Source of the DNA: Polytrichum commune
Taxonomy: Eukaryota > Streptophyta > Polytrichopsida > Polytrichales > Polytrichaceae
Length of the DNA: 64,000 nt
Assembly (NCBI GenBank): GCA_950295325.1
Contig: OX485809.1
Coordinates: 39,713,081 to 39,777,080 of the forward strand
Reading direction: 5' to 3'
Shown here: in pieces, positions 8,001 through 37,200 of the stretch
Layout: each line of letters starts with the position of its first letter
Numbering within the stretch: the stretch's first letter is position 1
The notes under the pieces: generated by a model
The model's input: the letters and a program-made list of their open reading frames with translations, nothing else
What the model was told of the DNA's origin: nothing
Database searches by the model: none
Position numbers and translations under genes: made by a program

Positions 8001-10132
8001 GAATATGCTACACTCTTTATGGTATTTATAGTAACGTACACTATTTGCAAAGATTTACACTAGATTGCCCAGAGACTTAGAAATTTCACTTCTGCTAATT
8101 ATCATCATCAACGTTATTTCTCAATATAGTAACGTTTTGAAGTGAATTGGCATTTAGCGTAGTGTGATGTGTTTACACTAATGGTAACTTGTTGAGCATA
8201 TTAATTTCATGTGTGATGTGTTTACACTAATGGCAACAAATGAATATTATATGCATGTATGTCCTGCAAGAATGGTGAGGAAGCTTTCATCCGTATGCTC
8301 TGTATGCACTCTTGCTGACCAAGAAAACTTCCTAGCATATCAAAGTCTTACTACAGAAGGATTATTTGGATATCATTTAAGGTGTAAAGAACCATACGAT
8401 GTAGGAGCAGAAGGAACTGTCATCACTTTGCTTTTGAATGTTTCATGCATGATTCTTGAAACTTAACAGGTGGGTGAGAAGCTACCATTACCAGATGCAA
8501 GCGTGGATGCAGTAGTGGGTACTCTCGTGTTGTGCTCTGTTTCAGATGTTTCTTCCACCCTCAAAGGTAATACTCTCACTAGCTGAACTTATTTTCTTTC
8601 AGGAGAGTTTCCTTAAATATAGTCCTCTGTAGGTGAAACCTATTCCCGCATATACTATTGTATTTTGCAATTATAAGCTTATTAGCAGCAAAGGACTTCA
8701 CAGGTGTCATGCCTCAAGGGTTTATGTAGTTCGTCATTAATTACAACTGGACAAAGGCCCAATTCAACATGCTTGAGTTGTATGGTATGAACTCCCGATA
8801 GACTTGCCCATGCTTATGATTCAATCAGAATAGATTTTTTGATCAAAATTTTCATTGTTTATCACCTGAAGTATTGATTTAACAATGTACATAGTACATG
8901 AGCGTTGTTTATCATACTTTGATAATATAACAATCAACCAGTAATCACTGTGGATTCATATATCTCCCATGAAGGTTAGATATATTGAAAGTGTATTGAC
9001 AGATGCGCCCATAAAAATAAGTTAACCCGTATAATATATCCACTTTCATTTAAATATGTGTTATGTGGGATTGTGCAGAAGTTCAAAGGGTACTTAGGCC
9101 AGGTGGTGCATTCTTGTTTGTGGAGCATGTTGCAGCACGTGGTAAGCACATAACTTATGCATGTTCTAGCCACTCACGAGTCTTCCTTATTCTTTTTGGA
9201 GTTTGCATAGGATGCTCATCACTGATTTGCTGGTCCCATCCCTTGTTGAATCACGTTTGGGTCTCAAAAGTTACAACATTAGTAGCCAGACGGATACAAA
9301 TCATCTCTTCTACAGAGAAAGAAAGAAAGACAACACTGATGTTGCCACCGGCATGAATTATGATGTTGCTTCATTTTTTAGTTGGTCTAAGACTACACGT
9401 AATCCCAAATGGGCATTACGAGAATTAGAGGGCCCTGACAACTACTGCCTCCTTTCGAGGGTGAACACTTTGAACTGGTGTGGACGACCCGGCTGACACC
9501 TATCTCCAAGGGCAAGCCCCTAGGTACCCACATGGTTGGTTGATAATATCCCATTCACCTGGATATCCCCACTATGATAAGATGGACCATAGGTGGTAGG
9601 GTGCACCGGAAATCAAGTTCTAGGAAGGTCACCCATTTGAGTACTAATTGGACCTCTGGCGGCTTAACCTCAGAGTTGCCATGGGATCCGGGTTAAGGCC
9701 TTGGGTTAAGCCACCCTTTCTTTCACATAGTAATGGTAGATGACCTGGAGGAAGTCTGATTTTTCCTTGCTCTTTCTGAAAGAATGGATTTCAAAGTTAT
9801 AACAACCGGCAAAAGTGAGAAGCCTGGTGGACTGTTAAACCTGTGTTGGAAATGTCTCTTTGGATTGGCTAGACACACAGATAAGGTCCAATCATTTTCT
9901 TGAAATTCATTCACCAACTCTAGCGTCTCTTGCAGAAGGGGAGCCACTTAGATTTTGGCAAAATCTCCTTGATCCTGTTCAACAGCTGGTGGCAGATGGG
10001 TGCCACCTTACCCGTGACACACTTAGTCTCATAGAAGCTGCTCAGTTTGCAAGCGTAAGTGCACACAAGGTCCAAGTTGAGGGAGTATCCATCCTTGGAC
10101 CACATGTTATTGGTATTGCCCGCACTGCCTGA
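5059..10132 (+). CDS. Plastid-type SAM-dependent methyltransferase (METTL7-like), 7 exons
   Basis: Exons as read: 5059-5353, 6381-6520, 6887-6982, 7756-7977, 8470-8566, 9079-9141 and 9936-10132. All phases close, giving about 369 aa. A class-I methyltransferase fold is visible: motif I ELGIGTGPN (about residues 198-206), the post-I acidic motif GVDPNEKM, DAVVGTLVLCSV, and RVLRPGGAFLFVEHV. The upstream HPARADWYEEFYA and the C-terminal RFWQNLLDPVQQLVADGCHLTR segments are typical of the plant METTL7-like family, several members of which carry transit peptides. The N-terminus lacks conserved sequence and ends in a CPCCSRR segment before motif I, consistent with plastid targeting (inference). Start is uncertain: ATGs at 5059, 5137 and 5170 share the frame, and 5170 (MPAIFRSFQLRSHR) looks most transit-like. 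Exons 2-7 are firm; exon 1 rests on phase and a GAG/GTGATT donor. Substrate unknown. Intron 6 holds a 5S-derived SINE. Confidence 0.85.
5550..6380 (+). repeat. Three-copy degenerate tandem repeat inside methyltransferase intron 1
   Basis: The block containing GAGTTTGCACTCTG, then CTCAAATGCTGCTAC, then GTGAATCTCTTT and GTGACCATAACTATTTT recurs with starts near 5636, 5948 and 6180. Sequence before the first copy (about 5554) also reappears at about 5819, so the duplicated unit is roughly 240-310 bp. The last copy runs into the exon 2 acceptor. The middle copy carries a close match to that acceptor and to the first exon bases (near 6126-6145). Confidence 0.8.
7021..7440 (+). repeat. Dispersed repeat family A, intronic copy
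   Basis: A diffuse repeat starts with a GCCTAATTCAGTCACTTATC-type sequence and includes GACATGTG, CCATTCTAGGCTCA, ATATGATCATT, a CTTTCATTATGAATAACATATTCA-like motif and CCCATCTACCTTA. Related copies are at 12541-12880, 14232-14310 (fragment), 14820-15015 and 60400-60642, and at 62080-62319 continuing after 62822. No coding potential remains. It lies in methyltransferase intron 3. Confidence 0.6.
9315..9716 (-). mobile_element. 5S-rRNA-derived SINE, copy 1
   Basis: Read on the minus strand from 9716, the first 120 or so bases align along their length with plant 5S rRNA. CGGATCCCAT, AACTCTGAGGTTAAGC, TTAGTACT and ATGGGTGACC fall in the right order and spacing, so the box A and box C regions of the 5S internal promoter are recognisable. 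A body of about 280 bp unrelated to 5S follows, ending in a TTTCTTTCTTTCT-like tail. Flanks at 9304-9314 and 9717-9727 match at 8 of 11 bases, a plausible old target-site duplication. It lies in methyltransferase intron 6, antisense to the gene. The 5S homology comes from my recollection of plant 5S sequence. Confidence 0.75.
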
Positions 10133-11091
10133 AAATGTGGAAGACAATCAGCGATCCTTTATTATAGGTGTGTTTAAGATCTGTGAATCCCTTGAGCACT
10201 TTGTAGCAGATTGCAAGGTAAGAAAATGAGCTAATCCAGCTAGTGGACTGGGAGAGCAGTAACCAGCCAACAACTGACAAAATTATGTTTTCAAGAAGGA
10301 CCTGTCGCATGTACAGTTTTAAATGTTAGACTTGGCTTCTGAAAAATTCTGATATATTGCAGATGGTTTTTGGACAGCTGGGCTATTTGGATGGTAAACC
10401 CTCACTAACCCGTGACTCAGTTAAGGTGATATGAAAACTTGAAGGCAGATTCTTGTACATATTGGATCCCACAATGTATGTAGTACCTCAGGCCGTAGGA
10501 TGCTATGATCCCATACTGGAAGTCATTATACTCTCGAGGTACGTTTATACACAACCATCATTTTGGTGGTTGATGGTTTCAGTTTACTTTCTTTGGGTCT
10601 CTTTTTGAGGGATAAGGAGAATTTTGCATTGATGACATCCAAAACTTCTCTTCTTTGCCCAACTACGATACAAGGTGTAGTTTGGAGTAGTTGCAATAGT
10701 TGTAGATTACTTTCTTTAGCTCTATTTTTTTTGGAGTTCCTACGAGGCACCTGGAGAGAACTTCAAGGCCAAAGCATGGGAGATGATTTGTGGTTGGCGT
10801 TACTCTTAGACAAATTTTCCATTAGAATCCATAAATAGTTTGCATTCACTCCACGGATTGCACCAATTGGAGGGATGATCGTTGAGGCCAGATCCACTCT
10901 TCAATTACCAAGAGTAGTAAGTTGTGTTTAAACAAAAAAAGCCTTTAGTTGTGGTTGAAAGTGGGTCCAAACTACAACCACAACTACCCAAGTAGTTGTG
11001 TAAAGCACTAGTATTGGTGGTGGATATTTGCTGGAAATCAGTTAGGAGCCCTTGATGGAATGCTTGTTACTTTGAATTAGACTAAACCCAC

Positions 11092-11520
11092 ATGATCTTC
11101 TCGGGAAACATACAGACCTCCGATTTGCAAGGTGGAGGTAAGCAATATTGGTGTCACGTGGAGTCCATTTGGGCTTCCTTCCCTTATCCGATTGGTGTCC
11201 AGTCAGATTGGCCAGATCCATATTTGGAATTTTTCAGGTTTGCCTCCCCTGGTGGGTATCTACTTTTTAAGATCTCGAACATTATCCAAGAGTGGGGATA
11301 TAATAAATTAGCTTGCAAGTATATGCATTAGGCACATCTTGTGGAACAGTGCGATAGCTTTTGCATCTCCGATGAAGTGGTGGTGGTGGCCCGCACTTAC
11401 AATGGTCCGATCCATAAAAGCGACTTTGAATTTGAGGAATTCAACTATCATTAGTCGACCCATCCTTTCAATTTGCAAAAGCTAAGGAGATTCGTGGGCT
11501 CGATATTCTGCTGTGCTGGA
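11092..11520 (+). pseudogene. Possible decayed coding segment, unrecognised
   Basis: One frame stays open for 79 codons from 11092 and then continues past single stop codons at about 11329 and 11452 for another 60 or so residues. Composition is protein-like (WGYNKLACKYMH, then VEQCDSFCISDEVVVVARTYNG). I do not recognise the family. It could be a remnant of a retroelement or of a captured gene, or chance. Confidence 0.3.
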
Positions 11521-11975
11521 AATAGAGCTATTTGATGAGTCACTCAGTATGATTGCACAAGGACTGCAGGAGTCGCTTTTTCATGGAGACCTCCTCAGAG
11601 GTCGATGTCTGTCACCCAGGTTTAAGTTCTGTTCAGTTCATTACAACCCCTCCCAATTTTTACACATGCAGCATGTGAAATCTGCCAGTGGTTCATCCAG
11701 GTGATCCGATGTTGGCACTGGGCAAGGATGCATTCATCATCGACATGGATTATTACACAAAACTATCAATGGTTCGGGCCTTGGACATGAGAAGAAATTA
11801 AAGTGGTTATCGTCGTTGCTGGCCTTGATTTGTAGTGTGGAAGGGCTTGTCTCAATTTTCTGCCCAAACCTTGACCTTGAATCTCTTTAGTTGAAGCTCT
11901 TGAAGCTTAAGCACACAACATAGTGGGGTAAACGTGGTTGGGGTTGTGAGCTTTGGCAGTCCTACACTCATAATC

Positions 11976-12171
11976 CCAATTAGTGTGTGCTACTATTTGG
12001 ACTTACGCAGTGCAATAACCTCTTTACTCAGGAGTTCAATTTTTACTAATGAAAGTTCAATGGGTTGTTCAAACAATATAGAACATACATGGTTTTGCTT
12101 GGTAAAATATTGCATTCTCATTAAACAATTATAGCATTGTGTAACTCCAAAAAGTAACATGCACTAATTGG
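11976..12171. mobile_element. MITE-like element with long imperfect terminal inverted repeats
   Basis: The left end CCAATTAGTGTGTGCTAC and the right end, read in reverse (CCAATTAGTGCATGTTAC), match imperfectly for about 40 bases, including TTTGGA and TTACGCAGTGC / TTACACAATGC. The roughly 196-bp element has no coding capacity. Its interior shares a TTGTTCAAACAATATAGAAC-like segment with the element at 32473-32687, in opposite orientation. No clean target-site duplication could be read. Confidence 0.55.
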
Positions 12172-12540
12172 GATAATCCAATGTAGCTTGGTAGCCAGAT
12201 CCTTATTCTTGCCACCTAGATTCGGGGAGCATGTACCAACATTGTTGCAAACAACGCTGATATTAACTTTGACATCATGGTATTGTTGAAACCATGAAGA
12301 TAGCATCAGGTGGGAAGTGACATTTTATGGGGAAGCATGTAGTTGTAATCAACAATTATTATGTTTTTTCCCATGGAAGTAGAACCAAGGAAAGTAAACC
12401 ACAACCATAACCATCCCTAGTGTGGTTGATGCTTGAGAGTGTGGGTGGTGTTATTTTAGTCTCCACCCTTTCATGAAAAGGGAAAAAATTATAGCCTCAA
12501 ATGTAAACATAGGTCATTATTACTTTCTTTCCATATTATA

Positions 12541-12880
12541 AGCTTGGTAGACATGCTTGATTTGGTTACTTATTTATGTCATACACTTATACTTGAGTGG
12601 TATGTGGATTGGTGTGGCTCCAAGAATGGATACTAAAAGACATGTGTTTGGGAGAGATTGGACTACTGTTCAATATACAATAACCATTCTAGGTTCAACA
12701 ATCAACATAATGGTTGGGGAGGAGTATATGACCATCACTTGAGCATGAGAATCTTTACTTTGATAGTGCATTACATATTCATATGAGCTCCAAAAAACCA
12801 TCTCATACCATCTGCATGTTTCATATCCTAGGAGAAATGGGCTAGTTGGAATAAGGCCCATCTACCTTACTACATATCAA
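12541..12880 (+). repeat. Dispersed repeat family A copy
   Basis: Shares the order of motifs with the copy at 7021-7440: GTAGACATGC, ACTTGAGTGGTATGTGG, GGCTCCAAGAATGGATAC, CCATTCTAGGTTCAACA, ATATGACCAT, ATGAGCTCCA, GAAATGGGCTAGTTGG and CCCATCTACCTTAC. It is the best preserved copy for defining the family's right half. No open frame of note. Confidence 0.65.
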
Positions 12881-13022
12881 CATTTGAGAGAGAAGATTTC
12901 CTTAATGTGAGGGAGAAAGTTGCTAGAAGCAAATGAAAGCAATGGTGAAGTACTACACCATTTATGGTATTTAGTGTCACATGTGTAATAGACATGGTGT
13001 AAGTGCCACTATTACACTTGTG

Positions 13023-13044
13023 AACCCTAAACCCTAAACCCTAG
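13023..13044. repeat. Interstitial telomere-type repeat (CCCTAAA)3
   Basis: Three head-to-tail copies of the Arabidopsis-type plant telomere heptamer stand alone in intergenic DNA. The motif fits a plant nuclear genome. Three units are too few to tell a break-repair scar from a promoter-type telo-box. Confidence 0.85.
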
Positions 13045-14309
13045 CATACACCTCATGATACTTGGCAATTAAGTGAACTTTCTTAATATCTTGGCATGAG
13101 TATGTTTAGTAGTGTTAAGAGGTGTATGTTTATGTTACATAATAGTCTACAAGTTGAATAAAATATAGAGGATGACACTTGGCACTCATGTGCTCAAGAA
13201 TATCTTCCTCTTGCACACTAAATTCTAAATACATGACACTTGCCATTTGTATGCTCAATAATATCTTCCCCTTACATACTAAAAACAAACTTTCATCTCA
13301 AGTATCCTAATGTGTTATGCTAAATATCATGAAGTGAATAAATTTTCACTTAAAAAGTTACTTATGTTGACAAATAGTTTCATATTGACAATACCCGGAT
13401 GTGACACTTTGAGACCGATGGGAGGACATGCTTACCTATAATCATGGGCTTAAACGATCATCTACTTTGAGTATATAAAAGAATACGACTTGGCAATCAA
13501 AGGCAAGAAAGTGGGGGAGCTTCCCCTCTTTCTTTTCATCCATCCAATTCATGCTCACAATTTTTGTCATCCAAAGTCTTCATCTGACACTCTTCAAAAC
13601 TCGCTACAACGTCTAACCTTGGCCCTTGATCGCAAGGAGCACCCTACAACTCAAGATGCGTTGCAGGCACATACCCCCATAGAGGTGTGAGCCACTCATT
13701 GGAGGCCCCTAAAAGTTAGTGTGTGAAATTTTCTTATAGTCCACCCACACCTATATGGGCCACTGACGAACGACTCCTACTAGGAGGGACCACTTCTAAC
13801 TCTAATTTGACCAGTGAGAAACACTAGATGTAACCAATGTTGGTAGAAACGTTTCACCGGTGGCCTGCACCGGCAAGTGTGGGTGGGTTATTAGTATCAC
13901 ACCTTTGGGCATCTGGGTTATGCGCTTTGCAAGTAGTGTACGTGACACTACTAAGTACCATAAACGGTATAGTGACATGAAATAAGCAACTTAATATATC
14001 CTGATTCGTGCATGATTGAGGAGCTGGACCCATGCCTGCTTCTGTTCATGCTCCAACAACTTGCTGCATGGGGCCATCCACATGGGATTCTGAGCCTGAC
14101 CATCTTGCAGGGTGACGACGTCTCCTCATAGCCAACTGGTGGCGAAGGCCAGACACAGAACCCACCTCCCTCCTTGATTCCCCAAGGGACACAGGCCACA
14201 CCAGCAGCAGCCTCCTCACCACGGCCCGTAAGGTAGACATGCCTAATTCCGTTACTTTTCTTAATTGGACACTTATACTTGAGGGGTATGTGTATGTGAC
14301 AATGAATGG

Positions 14310-14830
14310 AGAGAATGACCCTAGTTACAGATGACCTGGTTGAGGGGTTGATCAAGTTTTGACACCATCTGTCGGCATCTCCGGCTGTAATAGAGTGTGA
14401 AAAGTGGTGTCCAACACCTATTTTTTTTAACATAATCCCCACAATTTCACGGCTGGAACTGGACATAATGTTTGGTGTGATTGGGGCATGAGGGGCTGAT
14501 CACACCGGCCAGTTCTGACACCATCCGTCGGCATCTCCGGCTGTAGTAGTGTGAAAAGTGGTGGACCATCACCTAATTTTGAACATAATCCCCAGCAATT
14601 TTCACGGCTAGAACCAGACATAAAGTTTGGTGTGATCGGGGCATGAGTTTGAGAAATATTCAGTTGGAGTTCAAGACTTCATGAAAATTTCCAATTATTT
14701 TAGAGGAATTTGTGGAATATACCTCAAATCATTGAAGAAAGACCAAAAGATCACAACATGTAAGTGGTTGAACTTGGAAACATTAGGATTTTAACCGATT
14801 TTATCCAAAATCATCCTTGGACATAGATAT
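14310..14830 (+). repeat. Dispersed repeat family B copy, split by a two-copy tandem repeat
   Basis: The repeat starts GAATGGAGAGAATGACC and TTACAGATGACC, then resumes after about 14640 with GAGTTTGAGAAATATTC through TAGGATTTTAACC. Uninterrupted relatives are at 20303-20540 and 21727-21910. Between the two parts is a roughly 148-bp unit, present twice (about 14341 and 14488), with TGACACCATC, GTCGGCATCTCCGGCTGTA, CATAATCCCC and GGTGTGAT. It expanded inside, or was inserted into, the family B element. Confidence 0.65.
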
Positions 14831-15015
14831 GTGATTAGGTGTCGCTTCAAGAACAGATATCAAAAAGGCATCATGTGTACAAAAAAGAGTTGGAATGTGT
14901 GCTTAAAATATGATAATCATTTTAAATTCAATAGTCAACAAAATTGAAGGGGACCTATAAGACCATTTAATGAGCTCAAGAATCTTCAATTAGATAATGA
15001 ATAAAATATTCACAT
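14820..15015 (+). repeat. Dispersed repeat family A fragment
   Basis: Motifs in the same order as the 12541-12880 copy: GTGTCGCTTCAAGAACAGATA, AAATATGATAATCATTTTA, CAATAGTCAACA, CTATAAGACCATTTAATGAGC and AATAAAATATTCACATGAG. It follows the family B copy directly. Confidence 0.55.
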
Positions 15016-15898
15016 GAGAGCTTCAAAATTTATGCGGGAAGCCTCGCAGATCTGGAATCATGGCGTGTTTTATAACCGAGGAGAAGCGGGCGGGCTACTC
15101 AGAAAAAGTAATCATTTCAGACCCATCGACCTTACCGCTACAAGTTACTGCAGCAGCAATCTAAGACACAGGCAGACTACGTCGCAGGATTGGTCGGTTC
15201 ATGGATTGGCTTCACTATCTCACAAATGCAACGACCTCCAGGTCACAGAAGAGAAAGGCCGCAGGAGAGGCCACCAGAACGACAAAAACGATCAAATTTA
15301 TGGACAAATTTCCCCCAAATTTCCCTTTTCAGGTACCAGCTGCCAGCGTGCAGATAATGAGCGCAGTGGCTTTGCGGGTTAGTCAGCAATGCCACCACAC
15401 ATAGATTACTTGTATCTTCCAAACTCCAATTTCGGACTGTTGATGTAGTTGAAACTTGCAGAGGGGTAAGGTGCATGACTCGCGAGTGGTAGTGCTCAAT
15501 GGCGCCGAAGTATATAGACACTCTGCGGTGTCGCAAGAGGAGTTTCGGAGTGGGTTTCGTCGACCACCATGCACATATAGGAGGTGACCCAAGATAGAAT
15601 ATATGGTGCAAGGATTTGTAAGTCGATGGTGTTAGTCTCGGCCTGCAGCTAAGAGGGATTAACTTGCGTTGGAGGTTCAGTAGGTACGTACTATGACTCC
15701 TGACATCACTTGTGCTGTGAAGAAATGCAGCTATTGCAGGTCCGAGCTGATGCACGCAAGATGTGTTAATGGTCTGACATATGCCACCTCTAGTTGTGCT
15801 AGAATTAGTTCCTCACTGAGTGATGAGGAGGAGCATGCCAAATCTTTGTCATTTTCCACCCGGCAGATCAATGACTAGAGCCGACCCGCTCATAATTA

Positions 15899-16595
15899 AG
15901 TGTAGTGGAATCATCAACATTTGCCTCCCTGCAGGAGCTGTATCAAGAGCAGGGAGAGTGACAAACATTGACCAACTTGCAACAACATTAGGCAAAAAAA
16001 TTCCACAATCATACTAGATGTACAACTGTAGCAGCCGAGCTCGATTTCACCACGATTCCTGCAGTCATCTGCTCTGCAGCTTTGTGGTTCAGAGGTGATT
16101 GCAGGATTCCAGACTCGATCATAAAGTCTACTAGTGGAAACATCAACATTTGTCTCCCTGCAGGAGATTCATCAGCAGGAGTGACAGGGAGTGACAAACT
16201 CTAAAAATGTGGTACCACACCGCCATGGCCATCTTGCAACAACAATAGGCAGCGAAATTTCACAATTAGTACTAGATGTACAGTAGCTGCTGAGTTTCCT
16301 TACACCACTCCTGCAGTAATCTGCTCAACTTTGTGATTCAGAGCTTGCGAGATTATTAGAATTACAGACCCACTCATAAAGTCCACTGGTGGAAACATCA
16401 ACATTTGCCTCCCAGCATGAGCTTCAGCCAGGAGTGACCAATTTTGTGGTACTGCACCGCCATTATCATCTTGCAACAACATGAGGCAACGATTGTAGTT
16501 GACAATCATACCAGATGTACAGAAGCTGCACTCATTTTCTCAACTTTGTGGTTCGGAGCTTGCGAGGTTATAGCAGACAAGAATGGCAAGCAATC
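15899..16595 (+). repeat. Three-copy tandem repeat (unit about 220-255 bp) forming the ATL 5' flank
   Basis: Copies begin near 15899, 16126 and 16381, each with an ATCAACATTTG...CTCC start, GGAGTGAC, CTTGCAACAACA, ACCAGATGTACAG-like and CTTTGTGGTTC-like segments. The ATL start codon at 16583 sits at the end of the third copy, so the proximal promoter and 5' UTR are made of this repeat. The copies have diverged clearly, so the expansion is not recent. Confidence 0.8.
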
Positions 16596-18353
16596 GATTA
16601 ACATCATTAAGTTCTCCCGCAACAAACGGATCCAACGATTCTGCTACCTCCCCGGATATGGCTAATGGAGCCAGGTTCGACCCCACCATGGCGATCGCCG
16701 TAGTCTGCTTCATAGCTGCCTTCTTCTGCATCGGTTTCTTCGCAGGCCAGCTCAAGCGATGCATCGTGGGGGAAAGCGCAGAGGAAGCAGCCTATCGTTT
16801 GCAACAACGCCGTCACCGTCGTCCATTCACCCGGCCGGATCCTAGCCCTAAAAGTGGCCTTGCGGATGAGGTTATCAAGGCGTTGCCTTTAGTGCGTTAC
16901 AAGGATATGGTGAGCGAGCTGGAGCAGTCCTCGGAGGACCTGGAGTGTCCAGTTTGCTTAGCACCTTTCGAAGCAGATGACAACCTCAGGTTGCTTCCTG
17001 GTTGCAACCATGTGTTCCATTTCAACTGTATCGCTGCCTGGTTCTCGTCTCACATTACCTGCCCTCTCTGCCGTGCGAGGTTGCTGCCTCCATTTATCCC
17101 CAAACAGCAATCCAACGATGATGCCAGGATGGCGATGCCGGAGGTCACGGCAACGGAGCGTGAAGTCGAATTTGTGGAAAGAGATGGCGGACAAGGTGAG
17201 GTGTTTCTTGTCTTCGATGCGGCCAGCAGTACTGCGTTGCTATCCCACACCGAAGCAGCCACCACTTCGGGAGGTGAGTCCCACATCTGGGAAATGTTGC
17301 GCGTGTTGCTAGACTTTTCTTATAACGCTTTGGATGATCTACTTCTTTCTCTCATCCATTTCTGCGCAGCTGTGGAATTTTGGGGGTATTTGGAAACATG
17401 TGATATGAATCGAAGAAATAATTAGGGATTGGTTTAGAAAGAGCGAAAATACTTAAGCTTATATAAGGTCAAGAACTTTGGGTGTAGGATTACTGAGAAC
17501 AAACCCTTCTTACGTTGATTCTTTTACGTTGGAGGTGGGAAATGTTGTTTGTGTTGCGAGACTTTCGTTTAAGGCTTTAGACAACCTACTTCCTTCCGTT
17601 GGCCATTTCTGTGCAAATCTGAAGAATTTAAGGCTTTAGAAACGTATGGTGTGAATCGAAGAAAAACATTGAGGGCGTTGTTAGAAAGAGCGACTGGAAA
17701 ACTCTTAACCTTATTTGAAGATAACAACTTTGGATGTACAATTTCAGAGAACAAATCCATGTTGCTGCACAATTCTGCGTCCACAATGTTTCATGGCAGA
17801 TGATGGGAACTGAAAGATTGACTCTTTATGTTTGGCAGAAGGAAGCGGAGTGGCAGCCATAACCACTAGAGTTAGGGACGACGAAAATGTCATTATGTCG
17901 GTGGCCCTGCTTGAAGACGTCAACCAGAAGAGCAACTTCAAGTTCAGTAGCAGAAAACCCCCCCTCACGTCAATTCGCCGTTCGAAGTCTGTGGGCACCG
18001 ACCTCAAGTCGTTGCGCGACCTCCATTTGGTCCACTGCGAGGGTACTCAACACAACATTGAAAATTATGGGAAATACGCTAATTTGCATGTCACAGCTCC
18101 TTCATCTTGTGCACAGCTTCCTCTGATCATCAAGCCTCAGGACCACTGGGTAACGGTGGACATTAATGCAGCCGCAGATTCACCAGGTGCAGGGGCAAGT
18201 ACAAGCGGGGAGAATGCTAAGAGCCTCGAACCTGACAGGCTTAATATATCTAATTCGGAGAAATGGAGTTTTTCCAACTTCATAGGAGTGGTGTTTCCGC
18301 TGAGAAGAACCTCTTCGGAACTTGTGCTTCCGACACAGATCATGCCAGTGTAA
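16583..18353 (+). CDS. ATL-type RING-H2 E3 ubiquitin ligase, 2 exons
   Basis: Exons 16583-17273 and 17839-18353 give 401 aa. Layout: a Ser/Thr/Asn-rich N-terminus, one membrane span (about 36-57), a basic segment, a GLD-like element SGLADEVIKALP (91-102), then RING-H2. Its ligands are C122, C125, C141, H143, H146, C149, C160 and C163, with W153 in the E2-contact position. This is the layout of the plant ATL family: membrane-anchored ubiquitin ligases that work with an E2, often in defence or stress signalling. The substrate cannot be inferred. Without splicing the frame ends at 17425 (280 aa). I prefer splicing because GAG/GTGAGT is a consensus donor, the acceptor at 17838 restores the frame, and the second exon adds an ATL-like basic/Ser tail (TSIRRSKSVGTDL). 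Most ATL genes lack introns, so this is unusual. Confidence 0.85.
17287..17770 (+). repeat. Two-copy tandem duplication in the ATL intron
   Basis: Block 17287-17515 and block about 17537-17765 share GGGAAATGTTG, CTTTGGATGATCTACTTC / CTTTAGACAACCTACTTC, CATTTCTG, GTGTGAATCGAAGAA, AGAAAGAGCGA and GAGAACAAA in order, a unit of about 248 bp. The first copy contains the stop codon that would end an unspliced ATL product. Confidence 0.8.
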
Positions 18354-19340
18354 CATACAACTCTTTCCTTTCCTTTCTCTATGCGATATTTCTCATCTTC
18401 GGCTGATCCAATCCCATGGCCCATCGTCATGTGTTCAGGTTGTTGTGAACCCCCCTCCCCCCCCCCCCTAAAAAAAAATGTTGCTACTCATGTAAAAACA
18501 AAATCCAGTAGAAATTCACAAAGAGCGTGAGGAGATAACCTCACAAAAGATTGTGTAAATTGTAGAGTGTTACGTGCAATGTAAACTATGAAAATTTCAA
18601 CATTTAGCATCTCAGAGGGTAATTGGTTCGGGGATATGGAGTGAGCAGAGGTGGGTTGTGGACTTCTGCAGTCCTCTTACTTGGCATTCAGATTCAACAA
18701 CTCTTCGCTTTCTCTTCCGAGATTTCTCATCTACTTCGGCTGATCCAATCCCATGGCCCATCAGCACGTAATCAGCTTGTTATCAAAAGCCCCCAAATTT
18801 TCTAATCATGTAAAAAAGAAGAGTCCAGTAGAAATTGAAAAAGGAGAATACCTCACAAGAGATTGTGCAAATTGTTACTTTGCATTGTAAAACAGTGAAG
18901 ATTCCCAAGACTTAGCATCTCAGAGGGTACTTGGATCGGACAGATGGGTTGAGCCAAGATGAGTTGCGAACTTTTGCAGTCCACTTTGCTTGGCATTCAG
19001 AACATACAACTCTTTCCTTCATCCGAGACTCCTCATCTTCTTCGGCTGATCCAATCCCATGTGCAATCATCCGACTGTTTCTTAATATATATATATATAT
19101 ATATATATATTAACCCAATTTTGCTACTCATGTAATACACAAAATCCAGTAGAAATTTAATAAGTGTAGGGATCTCAGATTACCTCACAAGAGATTGTGC
19201 AAATTTGTAGAGTGTCAAATGCAATGCAAAAGAGTGAAGATTTCCAAGATTTAGCATCTCAAAGGGTAATTTGGTTCAGAGATATGGACTGAGCAAAAAC
19301 GGGTTGTGAATCTCTGCAACACTGTTGCTTGGCATTCAGC
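18354..19340 (+). repeat. Three-copy tandem repeat (unit about 320 bp) in the ATL 3' flank
   Basis: Copies start near 18354, 18691 and 19001. Each runs from an AACTCTTTCC-like start through TTCGGCTGATCCAATCCCATG, ATCCAGTAGAAATT, CCTCACAAGAGATTGTG, TTAGCATCTCAGAGGGTA and finally CTTGGCATTCAG. A fourth, broken copy may follow. The first copy starts at the ATL stop codon, so the 3' UTR is probably part of it. Copies contain a C run (18450-18468) and an (AT)n run (19085-19111). Confidence 0.85.
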
Positions 19341-20540: not shown

Positions 20541-21514
20541 TGTATTTTGTGAGCCTTTTAATGGGTCACGAGAATTTTGTGTTCAAATTGGGTGCAAGCC
20601 TCTACGTTTGAGGCTCATTGTGATTCCTCCACTCTTACCCAACATAGTGCTCTAGGATTCTGCACAATGCGAATCACAACATAGGTTGGCCAATTTAGGT
20701 TATATGTTGTAGATATGACTTTGTTTTGTATTCCTCTAGGGGAGCGTAGTCTAACAAATGAATTACTACTAACTTTTGTGAGTGTTGTGATAAGAAATAT
20801 GTTGGGAAGGAGCATTGTTTTCTAAATAGTAAATTATGGGGCACAAGCAAAGGTGATTTCCTCAATCGAGACATTGATGATTATGTGCGTGTGTGAAGTG
20901 TCATCTCAGTTTGGCGTTAGTAAGTCGGATGTGAAATTTCCCAACAATCATTTTTTATTTTGAGAAGAATACTCATATATGATGAAACAAATGTCATTGT
21001 TTTAAGCTCCAATACTTGATAACTAATTGGGAAAAGCAATACTTCGAGGAGGCGTCACATAGAGCGCTCAACTTGTATTGACAACTAGATTGAAAATCAA
21101 ACCTCATTGATTTTTTCTCACCAAATTTTATTCTATAACTCTATTTGTCTAAGTCCAAGAATTGTTGCTTGTGTGGTAATAGTGTGATAAAGTTAGGTTG
21201 GATACAAAGTGTTGGATGTTTTATTTGTGATGATTAAGGATGTGGATGAAAATGTGGTGAACATAGAATTCATGCAGTTGAAATGAAATGAAATGAAATT
21301 GATTTTAAAATCTAGAAAGTCAACAAACTTATAGGACTAAGAGGACATCATGATGAAGTCCGTAGCTTCCATGGAAAAGAGGCTATTATCCACTCAATAT
21401 CAAAAGTGGGGATTGAGTTCCCTTCACGGAAAACTCCATTATTTCTACCAAAGTGATGCATCTCACAAAACAACAATATCATCGACCTATAAGAATGTGG
21501 TACTATACAACGAT

Positions 21515-21594
21515 GTCAACAGTGGGATTCGAACCCACGCCCTTTCGGACCAGTACCTGAAACTGGCGCCTTAGACCAACTCGGCCATATTGAC
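21515..21594 (-). tRNA. tRNA-Leu (anticodon CAG)
   Basis: Read on the minus strand from 21594. The acceptor stem GTCAATA pairs with the 3' TGTTGAC over seven positions, one of them a T-G wobble. The D arm is GCCGAG...AAGGC. The anticodon stem CCAGT/ACTGG encloses the loop TTCAGGT, giving anticodon CAG. A long variable arm (class II, as expected for leucine) precedes the T arm GTGGGTTCGAATCCCAC. Length is 80 nt without CCA. Box A (TGGCCGAGTTGG) and box B (GGTTCGAATCC) are intact. There is no intron and no obvious T-run terminator right after the 3' end. Confidence 0.93.
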
Positions 21595-28400: not shown

Positions 28401-28945
28401 CCAGTACAATGTGCTTCTCAAAACGCAAGGTTATTGAATTATTTCTTGACACTCAAAACTAAGCATTGCTTGGATGGAGTTGAATTGGGACAACGTTTGG
28501 GACTCACCCTTCCATTCATATTCCATGTCACAATGTAGATTTGGAGCTCCGAAGCTGCCTTCCTCATCGCTTTTATTTCCCCTAAACCTTGGGCCTCATT
28601 CACATTATGGCACAACACAAGGTTACCATTCGCATTTGCCAAGGGTGACTTAAGCATCTTAGGAGTATGTACTTCAACTACCATGGGGTCAACTTGTAAA
28701 GAACATGGTTTCATGACTTTCACAAAGGGAATGCTTAGGCTACAGCGATGAGCATTACGTACTTTCAAGCCTTGAGATTGTGATTCACCCATTGAGCATA
28801 CATTCTCATTTTGATTCATGAGCCTTGTGGATTCACTATCTTCAATCTCTTCAAGGTCTAATTTATCGTTACATTGTTGCTCCATAGAATCAAGTCTCAT
28901 GTGCGGTATAGCACAAACCTCACACTTTCGGGCACAATTTCCCAT
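25432..28945 (-). CDS. Type I inositol polyphosphate 5-phosphatase, 7 exons
   Basis: Exons, 5' to 3' on the minus strand: 28945-28508, 28135-27996, 27483-27407, 26997-26872, 26488-26232, 26097-25960 and 25608-25432. All phases close; 450 aa. The enzyme removes the 5-phosphate from inositol phosphates or phosphoinositides in Mg-dependent fashion and so tunes membrane signalling. The catalytic set is complete: WNMNGR (141-146), GLQEAP (from 171), SHLAPHE, WLGDLNYR (321-328), PSWTDRILY (from 396) and SDHRPV (428-433). The N-terminal 140 residues are not conserved and begin MGNCARKC, a possible myristoylation/palmitoylation site, though position 6 is Arg rather than Ser/Thr. No second domain, membrane span or WD40 repeats are visible, so it resembles the smaller plant 5PTases. 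I chose the MGNC start; an in-frame ATG lies 24 bases upstream. Substrate preference cannot be read. Confidence 0.93.
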
Positions 28946-30359
28946 TCTCGAACTATTAGAACAACTCAATGGTTTGTTGCGCTATTTGCAAGCAAAAGGA
29001 ACAAATATGTCTCATAACCATATCTGAAGTCTTCATCCTTGATTTAGACGTCATCAATAGTAGCATGATGTTGTATGCCCACACTTAAAGAAGATGGCAG
29101 CCACCTCTTCCAATCGCTTATTACACCTGCACTTGCAAAGAAAATTGTGAGGAGAAGCTAAGGGACCATCATGGATTGGAATCCTAATGATGGTGACATC
29201 ATAATCTATGTGACGCAAGTTTCAACACCAAGTCTTTTTTTCCAAGAACACGGATAATGACATTGGTTCCTTTGAGGGAAGCTATTTATTAATGATGGTC
29301 TCATTTATTAAACTAATACACAATGCTAGATTAATTAAAAAAATTATAAGATATTTCACAACTCTTGTTATTTGCACAAGTTTGCATCTCATCATTCCAT
29401 CGCTTTCACCAAAACAAGAAATGTGACATGACCTATTATATTGTTGCTCATCAAATATCAAGCAACTAGGTCATGCAAACAAGCTAATGACACAATTAGT
29501 ACGCACTGGTAGAAAGTGAGCATGACTCACATTTCCTATCCATTACCTAAATCTTTGTACCCTCACACTTTGCTCTAACAAGGTGTCTTAGAGCAAGGTG
29601 TTGGTGCTGACCCTTTTTTGTTTTGTTAAGAAGCACCAACAAGGTGTCTTAGAGCCTAAGGAGAGTTGAAGTCACAATCATTGCAAGTGTGTAAATTATG
29701 CACATGCGGAGAAGTATGAATGATAGAATTCCTCACGAGCTATAACTTCCAGATAATTGTATTGCATGATGTCCACATCTTGACGAGTTATAACCTACAA
29801 ATTATGTTGTTTTCTAGTGCATTTTCCTTGCAATGTGTTCCAATATATCATAGTATGATAATAAAGTCCATAGTTTGTGTCACAATTAACTAAACATAAC
29901 CATGCATTGCCTCTACAACAACAGACATATACTATGATAGGTATACAATAGGTAGGCTATGATATCACACATGTCATGTTATGCTTTTATCAACACCGTC
30001 ATCAAACCCAATCAACTAATAATAGTACTACAACATCTTGGCATGGAACCTAAACACCTCTTAATTGGCGATCACGTAAAACGCAGGTAATTAACAAGTA
30101 GATGTACAGAGAGAGCAATAAAATTATTACCTCAGCACTGGCAATAACATGGTGACGAATTAACATCGTCCACTGGCAACATCAGTGACTATGTTGGCCA
30201 CTTGATTGAGCCTTGGTGTTGCTCAATAAACTTAGCACATGTTTTTTCCCACATACATTTTGCAATTCAATCAATTTATGACAATTGATGCCATCACAAC
30301 GTCTTCGTAAACTACCCCTATCAGCTTGGTGATGACGATAGACGTCCTCTTGTTTTCTT

Positions 30360-31363
30360 GGTGACGTGCACATACAACAACAATATTCCAATTCAGCATG
30401 ACATGGCAAAAAAACAACATTCAATATTCTTTCATAAAAAGCGTAACATACAACATCATAAACTTTAGTTGTTTTCAACAAATTATGTCTTATTAACATT
30501 GTAATGTCCAATTATCATATCTATCGCCACAACTCGGTGGAGAAGTAAGCTCCCATAAGCTTGGTGTGTGGAGACAACGATTCAATTAAATACCATGACC
30601 TCATTTCAGCATGACATGCAAGAAGCATTCTTCAATCCTACAAAGTGAAGTCCACACTAGAGCTTTACACAGACCGAGAACAAACTTATGTATAAATATT
30701 TTCGCACATCATTTAAACACTTCCAATTCTGTCGAATATTGTGCACATGAAGACAAAGAAACATCGTTATTTTAGCATGCCATAGCAAAAATTAGCATTA
30801 GTTTCCTCATGAATATAACGCTCCACATGCAGCACCAACGTGCAACCAAAACTTGTCCACAATCAATCCCCTCAATATGAATCAACGCGCTTTGCAAGAG
30901 TATATATACCTACTAACACCTTCGCAAGTTCAAATAAGCTTTGCAACCTCTCGGCAGAGTGGTTCAATACCTAATAGCCCTATTCGCTCCGTGATTACCC
31001 AAAACATCATGTATTCTGAGATCGTTGATGTGGAGAGACAACAAGTAATGGAAAATCACACCACTATCAATGCAATATACCATAGCAAAACATACGCATT
31101 GGCTCCACAAGAAAGAACGTGCACGAAACAAGACCAAATCTGATTCCCTAGGTCTGATTCAACAAGCTAATAGCCCTATTCACTCCGTGATTACCCAAAA
31201 CATCATGTATTCTGAGATCGTTGATGTGGAGAGACAACAAGTAATGGAAAATCACACCACTATCAATGCAATATACCCTAGCAAAATATACGCATTGGCT
31301 CCACAAGAAAGAACGTGCACGAAACAAGACCAAAGCTGATTCCCTAGGTCTGATTCAACAAGC
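30360..31363. repeat. Degenerate tandem array ending in two near-identical 196-bp units
   Basis: The units 30971-31166 and 31167-31363 differ at only about five positions. Each contains CTAATAGCCCTATTC, CATCATGTATTCTGAGATCG, GTGGAGAGACAACAAGTAATGG and CACAAGAAAGAACGTGCACG. Looser relatives (CAGCATGACATG, GTGGAGACAACGATTCAA, AGCATGCCATAGCAAAA) occur upstream from about 30360 at roughly 170-200 bp intervals. Open frames across it (up to 96 codons) reflect the duplication and are not conserved proteins. Confidence 0.75.
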
Positions 31364-32472
31364 TTTCCGCCACACCTTCATAAGACCTTCGGTGAGCAAC
31401 TTGAGCTATGAAATGAGCGATGACGACTGTTAATTTCACCACGGCAATGGTGGTGCCTGTTGTTGTAACTCCAAGGCTCCTCCAACAATTTACCATAACC
31501 CAAGATGCTCATCTACGACAACCACTCAAAACAAGATTACATGGGGTTCAATTCATCCATCCAGCATCTGCTGCAACTCCTCCTTTTATTAGCCTCACCT
31601 TGGGGCTTCATGAAGAGCGCTCTCTCCTAACATGTAGTATTTTGTCATGGTACACCTGCCATTACTTACTCCCCAAGGCCTAAACCTAAAAAATATTCAC
31701 AAGGGCGACGTGGTAGCTTGTTGTGGCAAAGTCCCTCAACACACAACAATTCTTGAATCATCAACCACTCACTATGTTTTTGTGTTTTTTTTGTTTTTCA
31801 CTATCATTTGTGAGTGAGGTATCAAATGAAATATCTTCATAGGCAAGACTTAGTCCAATAATATTTCGTAGCTCCAATTATCAAGGGAAGGGACAGCAAA
31901 ATCCAAATGATAAGCAATTAATCTTTGATTGGTCATTGCGCACAGGAGGTGATCTTGAGAAGCTGTACAAGATGAAGAGGGGAAAAAACAATCTTTGACG
32001 AAAATACCACCATTTGAAGGAACTAAAGATGTTTCTTGCAGACATGTTTTGGTGTTGAGCACCACCTATACTAAGCATGTGCTCACTTCAAGGATTAAAA
32101 ACCACATGTTGAACGCCTACCAATACATTGCTCCACTTGGATAAGATCTTAATACACTCTCCCTTGCCTTTCTCTCTTCCCATTGGCCATGAAATGTGTG
32201 TTGGCCAAGTTCCCTTCCCCCGAAGCCCCCTCCAAGAGCACGGTACCTATTTAGCTTAATTGTGACGCTTGTGTGTGCTTCTTGGACTACCCAATGGACT
32301 CATAATATAAACTTAACATCACACATGGTTTCGACTCAGGACTTCCAATTTACAGAGGTGATTGGGATGTGGGATTGCCACAATGGCCATTCAAAACAAG
32401 ATGACACATGACCGAATTTTCATGCCTTAAGTTAGTTTGAGATAGTACCCGTGCAAAGAAAGACAAGATACT

Positions 32473-32687
32473 ACACTAAATATGATATTTAGTGTCACTT
32501 ACTATTTGGAATTATAATCTATTTTCACTACTAATGTAATTTTTCACCAAGCAAAGTTGTTTAATGTTCTATATTGTCCAAACAACCAATTTGACATTTG
32601 TTGGTAAAAGATGAGATATATAGTAATTAGATATAGCATTGTGTAATTCCAAATAGCAAGTGACGCTTAATAGTGTAGCTTGGTACG
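32473..32687. mobile_element. MITE-like element, relative of 11976-12171
   Basis: The left end starts with a perfect 23-bp palindrome (32473-32495), then GTCACTTACTATTTGGAATTA. The right end, read in reverse, gives GTCACTTGCTATTTGGAATTA, matching at 20 of 21 bases. The interior TTCTATATTGTCCAAACAA matches the interior of the 11976-12171 element in reverse. No coding content. The target-site duplication is not certain. Confidence 0.55.
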
Positions 32688-34254
32688 GTATAAGGAGAGT
32701 AGACTAGAAATCATCTTGGGGGCTTGGGAGTTGTGGCAACCAATGCCTGCAACTTAACATAGGTGCCACAAACCCCTTCAAATTAGTCTACGGAAGTGAG
32801 ATTAAGTTGGGATGAAACCTATATAAATTAGGTTTTACCCAGAGCCCCTAACATGGTTACCATGAATCATAGACCCCATGTGGGGCCCAAACCACTCACA
32901 AACCCCAAATGAACCTTCTGAGCAGTTATTTAACATTTGGCAAAATTAAAAATCCAACTTAGTAAAAAGGGGAGGGATAACTTCTACACGAATGCACACG
33001 TTCACCTTGAATGATCTTAATGGATGTCATGAAGCCAAGGCCATGGGGGTGATACAGGATTGGAATCAGAGAACTTGCAAGACTAGATGACTGAAATGCC
33101 TTTGAATACATCCCACTTTGAATGACCGTCCAGAGAGATGTCGCCAGAAAATAACTTTGAAATATATCAGGACTTGCATGAATCAACAAATGTATGATAT
33201 TCCATTACTTTGTACATATTAATTTGGACACAAGAGGATTGATTTACTCATTAATTATAATCGTGTCCAAAATTGATATTGGCTTCAAATTAGTGTAAAC
33301 TGCACCCAATTTCAAACATGTGGATGCTCCAAAACTAATATGGTACACACTAAATTGGAATAAGTAGCACAGCATCCCTTCCCCTCCTCTGTTCATTCTA
33401 TTTTTTCATCCTCAGGGCCTCAAATTCATGACAGCCATTAAGGTCATCCAAAGCAGGATTGTTCATGCAATGTTGTACCTCCAATATTTCAACACTATTC
33501 CAGTCACATAAACGACCGTAAAGTCTTGAACTTATGAATCTTTCATTGTTTGATTATTGTTATATCAAATCAGGAGAATGTGAATGATGCATAATGATTG
33601 GTAATGAATCTCAGATGCACCTCCAAAGTATTAGTTTAATCTGGTGAGAATTTTGACATGATGGAAATCTCTTATCTGTACGAACTATGATCTATTAAAA
33701 AATTGCGACTACAGATTACTGTGGGGTTGTAGGGATCACAAGACCTCTTCAAAATATGATACTGGGTTCACAACGCCCTTCTGAAAACCTTGAGCCGTAT
33801 TAGGAACCTTTGTAAGCTGTAGGTGTGTGAAACCTTAATTAGTATCACCTTTGTAATAAATGACAATCTATAGCATAATCTGAAAGATCAAAAGGCAATG
33901 GCAATTTTCACTTCCTTGCCAAATCCTATTACACTCTTGCTTTACAGCAAAGACCGAGTGTGTATCAGTCCTTCCACATGGTAAACACCTAAACAGGTGT
34001 TGAGTCTGACTAGCCATTTTCCAGCAATTTCCTTTCCATCAAAGAAGACTTCCACTTAAGGACACTATTTGATCAACCTAAGCTTACCCTGAAAGTCCAA
34101 CTCCTTTACTCCGATGTTCAGACTACATCCAGAATGACCATTTCTATATACAACACATTGTGTTGTGAGCCTTTCTAGCTAGTTCATCATCTCCAGAAAT
34201 GACTATGCTTCCGATGTTTATGGTAATTGTGTTCACCTAGTGATTTGACCAGAG

Positions 34255-37200
34255 TCACCGACCACCCATGGCATAAGAGATGATTTGCTTCTTCAGAGGG
34301 CCCAACAGATGCACCGCATTGAAACCGGCTGCACGAGCTATGTTAAAAGGTCCAAAATCTGTGGAGTAGATCTTTTGGAAACCATCCAAGATAGCCATCA
34401 TTGCCATATTGGTCTTCTTTCGCTCTCCTTCATATTCTTCCAGTAAAGTTGTCTGAAATGTGATGACAAAACAATTAGAGATAGTCACATCATACCAAAT
34501 ACCATTTCAGCATGTTCACTTTAGTAGTACATAGCGAAAAGGGTGGCTTAAACCCAAGGAATAAACCCACATCGCATAGGAAGTCCAAGGTTAAGATGCC
34601 TTAGGCCAGAATAGTGCTCAGATGCGTACTCCACCCAATCATAGTGGGGGTATCCGGGTGAACCCGATATTTTCAACCAACCATGTGGGAACCTAGAGGC
34701 TTGGCCTTGAAGGAGATTAGGTAAAGGTCAGGCTATTCACGCCCATTCAGGGTGTTCACCTCTGATAGGAGGCAGTATTCTTCAGGGTCCCTCTAAATCT
34801 CGTGATGTTTGTTTCAGGATTACATACAGAATGGAACTAACTTGAAGATGAAGCGACACTATAATGCACGCCAGTGATCACATTGAAACATCTCTTCTTA
34901 CATTGTGAAATCACATCGTCAGCAGCTTCAACTTCACCAAAAAGGAAGAAATCGAGACATTGGAACAACAATATTTGCACATACCTCTCCAATATCACGG
35001 CCAGTTTGTATTCCTTGTTGCAGAACTTTTGTAAGCGCATCAGCATCTCCAAACCCTAAATTGACACCTTGTCCAGCAAGGGGATGCACTGTATGTGCAG
35101 CATCACCAACAAGAGCAACACGGTGGCTCACATACTTGGTTGCATGCATTAAAGACAATGGAAATGAAAGCCTGTCTGTGACACAGTCTACAATGCGGGG
35201 AGGAACTTGGAACTGCTCCACTGCTGAAGGTGCCATGGCTCCAAGCACTTGAGTCCCTAGCACTCCCCCCAACACCTCTGCAATCCTTGAGTTTGGTTGC
35301 GATCCATAGTCTTCTAGTAATGCTCTGTTTGCTGCTGTAACAAAGTTTTCACGTGACATGGTCTTTAGGTCCTGGGCAGTTAGAGGTGATGTTGTCCACA
35401 CTATGTTGCTATATGTGCCTCCCAATGGCAGCAATGCAAATGGGCCAGTGGGAAGAAAACGTTGCCAAGCTGTAGCGTGATCCCATTCCACCTTTACTGT
35501 GCAGATCACTGCTGTTTGTTTGTACTCCCATCCTCTTGTCTGGAAGCCTGCCATCGCTCTTAATGCTGACCTCCCTCCATCTGCCCCAACCTAATCACAG
35601 CAGCATTGCATGTAAGTTTTGTAACACTCGTAATCTCAACCTCAAACCTGGCAATTGATCCTTTAGTCACATAAAAACAGTCACCACAATGACACTTTGG
35701 CATTGGTAATCTTCTAAGGTAATCTCTTGCATTTTTACTCTTCTAGAAGAGAGGAGAAGAGAAAGAGCTGACTTCAATGCTGACACTGGCATGAAAAATG
35801 ATGTTGCTTCATCTTCAAGTCAGACTTGAGTCTATATGTAATCCCGAAACAGGCATCACAAGAATTAGAGGGCCCTCAAAGACTATTGAATCTTATTAAG
35901 GTGAACACCTTGAACGGGTGCAGACAAGCCGGCCTGCACCGATCTCCTCCAAGGACAAGCCCTTGATTGAAAATATCCAATTCCCTCATATACCCCACTA
36001 ATATCAGGTGGAACATAGTAGTAGGGTACACCAGAAAATCAAAATTGTTAGAAAGGTCACCCATCCAAGCCCTATTCCAGCCTTAAGCAGCTTAACCTTG
36101 GAATTCCCATGGGATCTGGGTTAAAGCCTTGGGTTTAGGCCACCCCTCTTCTAGGACCAATATAAACTATGTCACCACAAGATCCTTTCCATGAGGTAAG
36201 TCATGAAGGCTAGAATTTGTTTGAACACAGAAAGATAATATAGACACATACAGGAAACTGTGAATCAACGAAATAGCAAGTGGAATTAGTGGAGAAGATG
36301 GTGTCGTGTCAAACCAGATTGGACCAAACAAGACAGGACATGTATCCTTACCACAAGACGTGCTCGCAGGGTTCTTCCATCAGCAAGTCCAACCTGAGCC
36401 CAGTCTTGTCTTCCATCAACATTTGCCTCGTTAGCAACAGTAGTGGCTGGTGCAATAGGAGATGGGAAAAGGACGGACTGCACTTGGGCAGGATTGATGA
36501 GCTCAACCGATCCTGTACTCTGCAATTCCAGCCCATCAGGCTCTTTCCACAACACTTCACTCTGTTTCATGAAGAACTAATAGTGCAGGAATGGTTCAGA
36601 TTCTAGAGCTGACCTGCAGATGGGAGAGTAGAGCAGCAAGCAACACTTTGTTTTCCACCACATATCTGCAAAAGACATCCCAAGAAACATATGACCTTGT
36701 TAAGCCAACATCTGGAAAACAGCTTACACACAAGTAGACGATATTGTTCAACCACTGAATGTAGGTTTCTTCAGTCGAGTGTCTTCTCCTTCAGCATATT
36801 GCATCATTGAGGTGCACCCATATCCGTTTCCACAAGCTAAGGGTTGTCTCTATGCAAGTAACTCCTTAAGCTGAGTTGTAGCAGGTTAACAAACAAGAAG
36901 TCAACATCTAGTAATTGTGGATGTATGCATGGCAGCTGCCATTCAATTCATCACCCCAAGCCTTAATCATACAAGGAGAGCAGGATTGCATGATCAAAAT
37001 ACCTAATGACATTGGTTGTTTTAGTGCATGGAGTTACCATTCTACAGCTCACTTGTGCAAGATAGAAGAGGGGGAAGTCTAAGATTCCACAGAGAAGGTA
37101 ATTGCTGCTAAAGATTCTCACTTTGATGTGGACTATAAGCAGTTCAATGTTTCAAAGATCCCAGTGAGACAACTTTGTTAATATAAATAGTCAATTCAAA

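Follow-up and report, generated by a model that had tools for sequence, protein, structure and literature searches.

Three repeats in a 64,000-nucleotide stretch of the genome of the moss Polytrichum commune (assembly GCA_950295325.1, contig OX485809.1, positions 39,713,081 to 39,777,080; this whole stretch is called the window) belong, with a probability that we put at about 93%, to a family of short interspersed nuclear elements (SINEs) of class SINE3, that is, with a head derived from 5S ribosomal RNA (5S). A new plant SINE family of this kind had been proposed in a preliminary description of the window, and the proposal is supported by the number of copies in the genome, the place at which they start, their target-site duplications and a 3′ end resembling that of a long interspersed nuclear element (LINE). 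We refer to the family as the 5S-SINE, to its members in the window as copies 1 to 3 (Table 1) and to the genome loci retrieved for analysis by L-numbers. In the similarity searches of the genome only the best first-look candidates were scored (40 per DNA search unless stated).

The window copies and their family

Related elements were indeed present at the three places named in the preliminary description, each matched by a profile of the family (9321-9719 on the minus strand for copy 1, 34539-34898 on the plus strand for copy 2 and 35760-36148 on the minus strand for copy 3). Since this profile was built including the window copies, its E-values for them are circular, and the independent test was a BLAST search of the genome with copy 3 alone. 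This search found near-full-length relatives on all seven large contigs, the best other one with an E-value of 2.7e-69 (40 of 1,741 candidates scored). These contigs, of 42-78 Mb, account for about 406 of the 408 Mb of the assembly, and the moss probably has seven chromosomes. For a 507-residue portion of plastid psaB from contig C8 the best matches were the PDB chains 7ksq, 6l35 and 8htu, of the moss Physcomitrium patens (1175.4 bits each), followed by 9lut (1154.4 bits) and others at 1133.5 bits and below.

A first consensus, made from 30 loci and two window copies, had 2,778 candidates in the genome. The 40 scored were all near full length and 85-89% identical to it; none of them exceeded 89%, and younger relatives could be missed in such a sample. 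In an alignment of 73 copies, which left out L030 as well as L075 (its flanks are the same as those of L072), mean identity to the 401-bp consensus was 86.5% (79.9-91.3). The consensus consists of the 5S head (1 to ~120), a body (121 to ~360) and an end made of ATTCACG, a hairpin, AGT and a pyrimidine tail, mostly (TTTC)n. When two 20-mer words were searched in the whole genome with up to two mismatches, the 3′ word had 1,253 matches and the head word 954, as against 3 and 2 for the reversed-pattern controls. The head word is expected to be the rarer, given 5′-truncated or decayed copies, and nothing in the counts points to a far larger pool with the same tail behind other heads. The 5S-SINE is short and non-coding, and about a thousand or more copies with common ends are dispersed in the genome.

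The family looks old. Divergence from the consensus in the 73 copies reached 38% at CpG positions and 11.3% at the others, with 2,673 transitions against 1,163 transversions; from this CpG decay the family was apparently once methylated, and we infer that it is now inactive.

The 5S-derived head

The 5S-like head claimed for the window copies was confirmed when they were locally aligned to the 5S gene of this genome: copies 1, 2 and 3 scored 36.5, 27.5 and 42.5, while the maxima of 300 shuffles each were 17.0, 16.5 and 15.0. The head of the consensus was identical to the best 5S gene of the genome (L031, 109.6 bits with Rfam) in 83 of 122 columns (z = 13.5 against 1,000 shuffles), and the alignment covered the whole length of the gene. 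Identity amounted to 42 of 52 positions in the internal promoter region, 29 of 45 before it and 12 of 24 after it, and the head has the A box, intermediate element (IE) and C box of a SINE3. For the individual window copies, the A-box and C-box parts had been claimed in all three heads; this has to be qualified for copy 2, in which the C-box region is damaged by the loss of ~45 bp around the head end. The head may come from the present 5S of this lineage or equally from an older plant 5S, its identity being 83/121 with the 5S of this genome and 85/123 with a flowering-plant 5S sequence. The 5S-like copies in TFIIIA genes were considered as the source of the head instead and rejected, as the alignment to these was poorer (27.5 versus 42.5 for 5S).

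We also scanned the genome with the Rfam 5S model (curated cut-off 38 bits; 47 of 15,430 candidates scored, 42 matches listed). All 13 listed matches below the cut-off were heads of the 5S-SINE, covering model positions 1-120 with 24.2-35.2 bits and E-values from 0.0025 to 2. Eight were identified by locus, the SINE profile continuing into the body (L157-L164), two are L065 and L058, and three fit word or DNA matches by their coordinates. In the 64-kb window no match to this model reached an E-value of 1, because the three copies there are too decayed for the curated model. The likeness of the head to 5S is strong, but by these scores the family appears to have left the curated 5S family.

The 5S matches listed by the scan lie scattered, and arrays are possible, as few candidates were scored. 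Two loci carry pairs of 5S-like sequences ~180 bp apart with Rfam scores of 42.8-51.9 bits (L088, 294-403 and 476-589 on the plus strand; L089, 328-441 and 511-626 on the minus strand). Their flanks read by eye as TFIIIA zinc fingers, and L155 has a similar pair. We read the pairs in L088 and L089 as two tandem cases of the 5S-mimic exon of plant TFIIIA. In L031, a snoR31 match above its cut-off (47.8 bits; 1993-2085, minus strand) lies ~370 bp upstream of the 5S gene on the same strand.

The 3′ end and a candidate partner LINE

Within the last ~40 bp of the 5S-SINE, the word ATTCACGCCGGT is followed by a hairpin directly ahead of the pyrimidine-repeat tail, and this arrangement resembles LINE 3′ ends. 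LINEs were searched with RVT_1 (150 of 2,620 candidates scored) and several classes were found. The comparison of SINE and LINE 3′ ends envisaged in the preliminary description led to one with a similar end, which encodes an APE-type endonuclease (PF14529), a reverse transcriptase (PF00078) and RNase H (PF00075) and is called here the RNase H LINE. It ends in (TTTTC)n, where the likeness among its copies stops; one member, L136, has a (TTTC)n end as in the SINE. The 3′ ends are AATTCACGCCGGTATTTGATACGGGCGTTCACTTTTCTTTTC in the LINE L106 and AATTCACGCCGGTGGCAACATCGGAGTCATCTTTCTTTC in the SINE, with an exact match of 13 nt plus the hairpin.

The hairpin has an energy of −10.0 kcal/mol in the SINE (z = −2.8), and z is −5.4 in one LINE variant. 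When 19 LINE 3′ ends were aligned with the SINE, structure being disregarded, 89.5% of the cells were paired and both sides had changed in 6 of 10 pairs. None of 500 shuffles reached this percentage and 13 of 500 reached the pair count, while slides of one to three columns gave at most 49.5% pairing. For 17 of 22 LINE pre-tail variants, the likeness to the SINE was equalled by no more than 10 of 500 dinucleotide shuffles; the variants (23 before L115 was dropped) are mutually related and hence are not 22 independent tests, and L138 stops short of the 3′ end.

With a LINE 3′ end as query, the first 21 of 40 scored matches were 95-100% identical (763 candidates; the query is itself such a 3′ end), and the RNase H LINE looks young. 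The five short 5′-truncated copies examined (L111-L115) all have duplications of 10-14 bp by eye. From these resemblances the RNase H LINE is the likely partner of the 5S-SINE.

The SINE might instead have had another partner, for example a poly(A)-tailed or a zf-RVT LINE, its likeness to the RNase H LINE being convergent. We regard this as improbable, even though the stretch common to the SINE and the RNase H LINE is short. Four LINEs of one class (L092-L095) end in poly(A) and not in a pyrimidine tail, and were rejected as partners on this ground. For the zf-RVT LINEs (L099-L102, L107-L110) the 3′ ends were not recognised, and the loci gave one weak match to the SINE profile (E-value 0.011) in a different part of the SINE (224-280), whereas the RNase H LINE has the word, the hairpin, the kind of tail and the length of the duplications in common with the SINE. 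A DNA search with the 3′ 126 bp of the SINE revealed no LINE in the 16 loci inspected (40 of 2,009 candidates scored); 15 of these carry more of the SINE upstream, and L076 starts where the query starts.

The RNase H LINE also showed a PCIF1_WW match between reverse transcriptase and RNase H, unusual for a LINE (residues 730-818 in L098 and 734-818 in L096). The scores, 28.0 and 27.2 bits, are below the cut-off of 31.1, with E-values of about 2e-6 and 4e-6. The LINE frame of L139 (886-3600) has GDIHPNPGP near its start, which resembles a motif of the 2A type.

Element ends and target-site duplications

Duplications were evaluated in 91 loci and window copy 1, of which 75 copies passed a filter for near completeness, a strong match and enough flank; these are the best-scoring copies and no random sample. 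A duplication score of at least 8 was reached by 31 of the 75 copies (30 of 74 after one segmental duplicate was dropped), compared with 0.87% of 3,000 mismatched flank pairs, and a score of at least 10 by 13 of 74 copies and none of the 3,000 pairs. The duplications are 8-14 bp long, apart from one of 21 that runs into the head, and thus vary in length as those from target-primed reverse transcription do. At the 5′ end, 51 of the 75 copies start with GGGTG. Most commonly (11 of 31), two bases separate the upstream duplication copy from the GGG of the head, and A is found at −1 in 48 of 66 copies and at −2 in 45 of 66, so that the true element may begin with AA ahead of the 5S-like sequence. 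L029 has lost its first ~15 bases (truncated at about base 16) and is flanked by a perfect 12-bp duplication. The pattern that had been predicted for a SINE, namely many copies starting at the 5S head, variable duplications of 7-15 bp and a common 3′ end, was found in every part, the duplications being mostly of 8-14 bp. In three of 30 loci (L017, L025 and L030) partial 5S-SINE copies abut in the same orientation, possibly as dimers or template switches.

In the window, copy 3 was verified to have the duplication CTAGAAGAG, perfect over 9 bp, and to start at 36145. That the duplication abuts on the first base of the head holds for copy 3; family-wide the duplication often ends two bases upstream, before the extra AA. 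Less remained of the imperfect duplications described for the other two copies. That of copy 2 is present with 10 of 12 positions matching, but its score of 6 is equalled by ~10% of mismatched flank pairs and is weak alone, and that of copy 1, with a score of 4, was indistinguishable from chance in this scoring.

The ends also bear on a reading of the copies as solo long terminal repeats (LTRs) of a Cassandra-type terminal-repeat retrotransposon in miniature (TRIM), in which the 5S would lie within the LTR. The known 5S-bearing element of plants is Cassandra, and its LTRs are roughly similar in length, with a median of 270 bp in Asteraceae according to parts of PMC10853983 and PMC10886601. Only three of the 75 copies start with TG, and TG..CA ends were not found; the 5S is the very start of the elements and hence not internal as it is in Cassandra. 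Clear duplications are mostly of 8-14 bp and not of 5, within a scoring that took at least 6 letters after the tail and for which a 5-bp class among the other copies is beyond reach. A second same-strand copy above 20 bits was present in only three of 30 loci with 1.5-kb flanks, as abutting partials without an internal region, and the tail is a variable pyrimidine repeat resembling that of the LINE. The earlier statement that paired LTRs and TG..CA ends are lacking was thus borne out, with no LTR pair around an internal region in the loci examined. By duplication lengths, starts and missing LTR pairs we reject solo Cassandra LTRs as extremely unlikely.

Hardly any credence is left for processed 5S pseudogenes with chance neighbours, or remnants of tandem 5S spacers, in place of a self-propagating family: dispersed 5S genes and fragments do occur, and 11 further over-cut-off Rfam matches are head only, without the body, but about a thousand or more copies exist, 73 of them aligned to a common 401-bp consensus and 3′ end, many are flanked by duplications at both outer ends, and the body is not beside the 5S genes examined, L032 alone having a SINE fragment, ~1.3 kb away from its gene.

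A second, young SINE-like family

Beside a 5S-SINE copy at L090 we found a repeat of a second SINE-like family of ~370 bp (1-217 of that locus, minus strand), with other copies at L140-L145. The 40 scored of 1,031 candidates were 95-100% identical to the query, which makes this second family young. Five of six copies were traced to the 3′ end; they have duplications of 11-12 bp by eye, and four of the five have a (TATC)n tail. A 32-bp motif directly behind the head is common to both families (84% identical, pairwise E-value 3.4e-5, none of 400 shuffles as good). So is the 3′ end, ATTCACGCCGG..CGGAGT plus hairpin, with an exact word of 11 nt (one of 400 shuffles as good). The heads are unrelated: their likeness was matched by 392 of 400 shuffles. 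As a pattern, the 32-bp motif had 1,181 matches in the genome and none in the control; among the first 100 of these, which were listed, 8 had the 5S-SINE version, 88 that of the second family and 4 another. A tRNA origin of the second family's head was considered and found no support: words like the A and B boxes are seen by eye, but ARAGORN found a tRNA in none of six loci and Rfam in none of four. The 5S-SINE therefore looks modular, and the parallel with the moth elements HaSE3 and HaSE1 suggests that a head may have been exchanged.

Proposed mechanism

We propose that the 5S-SINE would be transcribed by RNA polymerase III (Pol III) from the internal promoter of its 5S head (A box, IE and C box), that the LINE reverse transcriptase would recognise the hairpin and tail of the SINE RNA, and that it would copy this RNA into a nicked target site in target-primed reverse transcription. 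In the SINE consensus the tail is TTTC, not the TTTTC or longer that is usual in the LINE, and would thereby avoid a Pol III stop. The element may have arisen when a 5S RNA sequence was joined onto an existing SINE body and tail, because the second family has the same post-head motif and 3′ end but another head.

Several points weigh against a LINE-mobilised SINE with a 5S-derived head. Among the 29 Rfam matches above the cut-off, the 19 examined included no 5S-SINE head and are 5S genes, 5S fragments and TFIIIA copies; ten matches of 98-108 bits are not in this count. No significant duplication was found in 44 of 74 copies, which would fit their old age. The likeness of the SINE and LINE 3′ ends is short (~40 bp), five of the 22 LINE variants (L128, L131-L134) were not better than chance (19 to 75 of 500 shuffles), and the G-A mismatch of the SINE hairpin was found in only one of 19 LINE rows (L123). 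At consensus position 172 there is a run of four T, a potential Pol III terminator, each base of which is kept in at least 80% of the copies, so that transcription presupposes read-through or a tolerant terminator. Such a run occurs somewhere ahead of the last 30 bases in 58 of 73 copies, and the exact word around 172 is kept in only 26 of 73. Finally, the origin of the body could be traced no further than the 32-bp motif, and transcription and retrotransposition of the 5S-SINE are predictions.

Other features of the window

The positions of the three copies, of their duplications and of an open reading frame flanked by copies 2 and 3 are given in Table 1. The window also contains an inverted repeat pair 16 kb apart, at 43523-44308 and 60642-61417, with 97-98% complementarity over ~790 bp, and a tRNA gene at 21514-21594 on the minus strand (Rfam, 58.4 bits; tRNA-Leu by eye).

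Table 1. Copies of the 5S-SINE in the window, their flanking duplications and an open reading frame (ORF) lying between two of them.
Feature	Positions	Strand	Remarks
5S-SINE copy 1	9315..9716	−	~120-nt 5S head from 9716 downward, then body, (TTTC)n tail to ~9315
5S-SINE copy 2	34541..34899	+	Profile match and alignment; ~45 bp gone around the end of the 5S head
5S-SINE copy 3	35747..36145	−	Full length; head from 36145 downward
Copy 2, putative target-site duplication, 5′ side	34528..34539	+	TACATAGCGAAA; weak alone
Copy 2, putative target-site duplication, 3′ side	34899..34910	+	TACATTGTGAAA; 10/12 match; weak alone
Copy 3, duplication CTAGAAGAG, 5′ side	36146..36154	−	Perfect 9 bp
Copy 3, duplication CTAGAAGAG, 3′ side	35738..35746	−	Perfect 9 bp
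ORF, FAD-binding monooxygenase (COQ6-like by eye), between copies 2 and 3	34937..35590	−	Pfam PF01494, E-value 2.1e-15; host context only

Comparison with known systems

Class SINE3 is already known, and the features tested place the 5S-SINE in it and not among Cassandra LTRs. The zebrafish-type SINE3 and the 5S SINEs of fruit bats, both from vertebrates, have a 5S head and depend on LINEs; we liken them to the moss family by description, their bodies being outside the comparison. Angio-domain SINEs have a head type other than 5S. They too are plant SINEs, from flowering plants, and going by the title of their report are defined by a common 3′ domain, so that this likeness is also one of description.

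The preliminary description had 5S-derived SINEs as described from vertebrates, which is correct but incomplete, as they are also reported from insects and a fungus, Aspergillus (for insects, in parts of PMC3272025 and PMC8010984). The moth element HaSE3 of Helicoverpa armigera has, like the 5S-SINE, a 5S head with A, IE and C boxes, and it has a body and 3′ tail in common with another SINE of its genome and a tail similar to that of a LINE, which is comparable to the situation here (PMC3272025, in part). It differs in that the whole body and tail are common with the tRNA-SINE HaSE1, while here only the 32-bp motif and the 3′ end are, and in that its LINE is HaRTE1.1 and not an RNase H LINE (PMC3272025, in part). 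PxSE4 and PxSE5 of another insect, Plutella xylostella, with 4,415 and 1,952 copies, also have a 5S head with A, IE and C boxes, and the same section of the paper describes a LINE with a similar 43-bp 3′ end; we liken them by description (PMC8010984, in part). Among open-access papers, searched by titles and the starts of abstracts, we found no plant 5S-derived SINE; subscription papers and Repbase were outside this search, so that priority is not established.

The Cassandra TRIM of land plants is likewise a plant mobile element using the 5S internal promoter, but according to parts of PMC10853983 and PMC10886601 it is an LTR retrotransposon whose LTRs are paired and contain the 5S, features that were not found here. 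By one speculation, Cassandra goes back to the insertion of a SINE3 in an LTR (PMC10886601, in part). Apparently no plant SINE3 could be named when this step was proposed, and a plant SINE3 makes the idea testable by comparing heads and junctions. With a LINE that is apparently young and a SINE that is old, one genome offers both the candidate machinery and a fossil record of its passenger. We would give even odds to these propositions taken together: that no 5S-headed SINE was described from any plant before this one, that the SINEs of mosses form a modular system in which exchangeable heads, 5S or that of a young family, are combined with one shared central motif and with a hairpin tail that an RNase H LINE recognises, and that plant SINE3s could have been donors of the 5S promoter to Cassandra LTRs.

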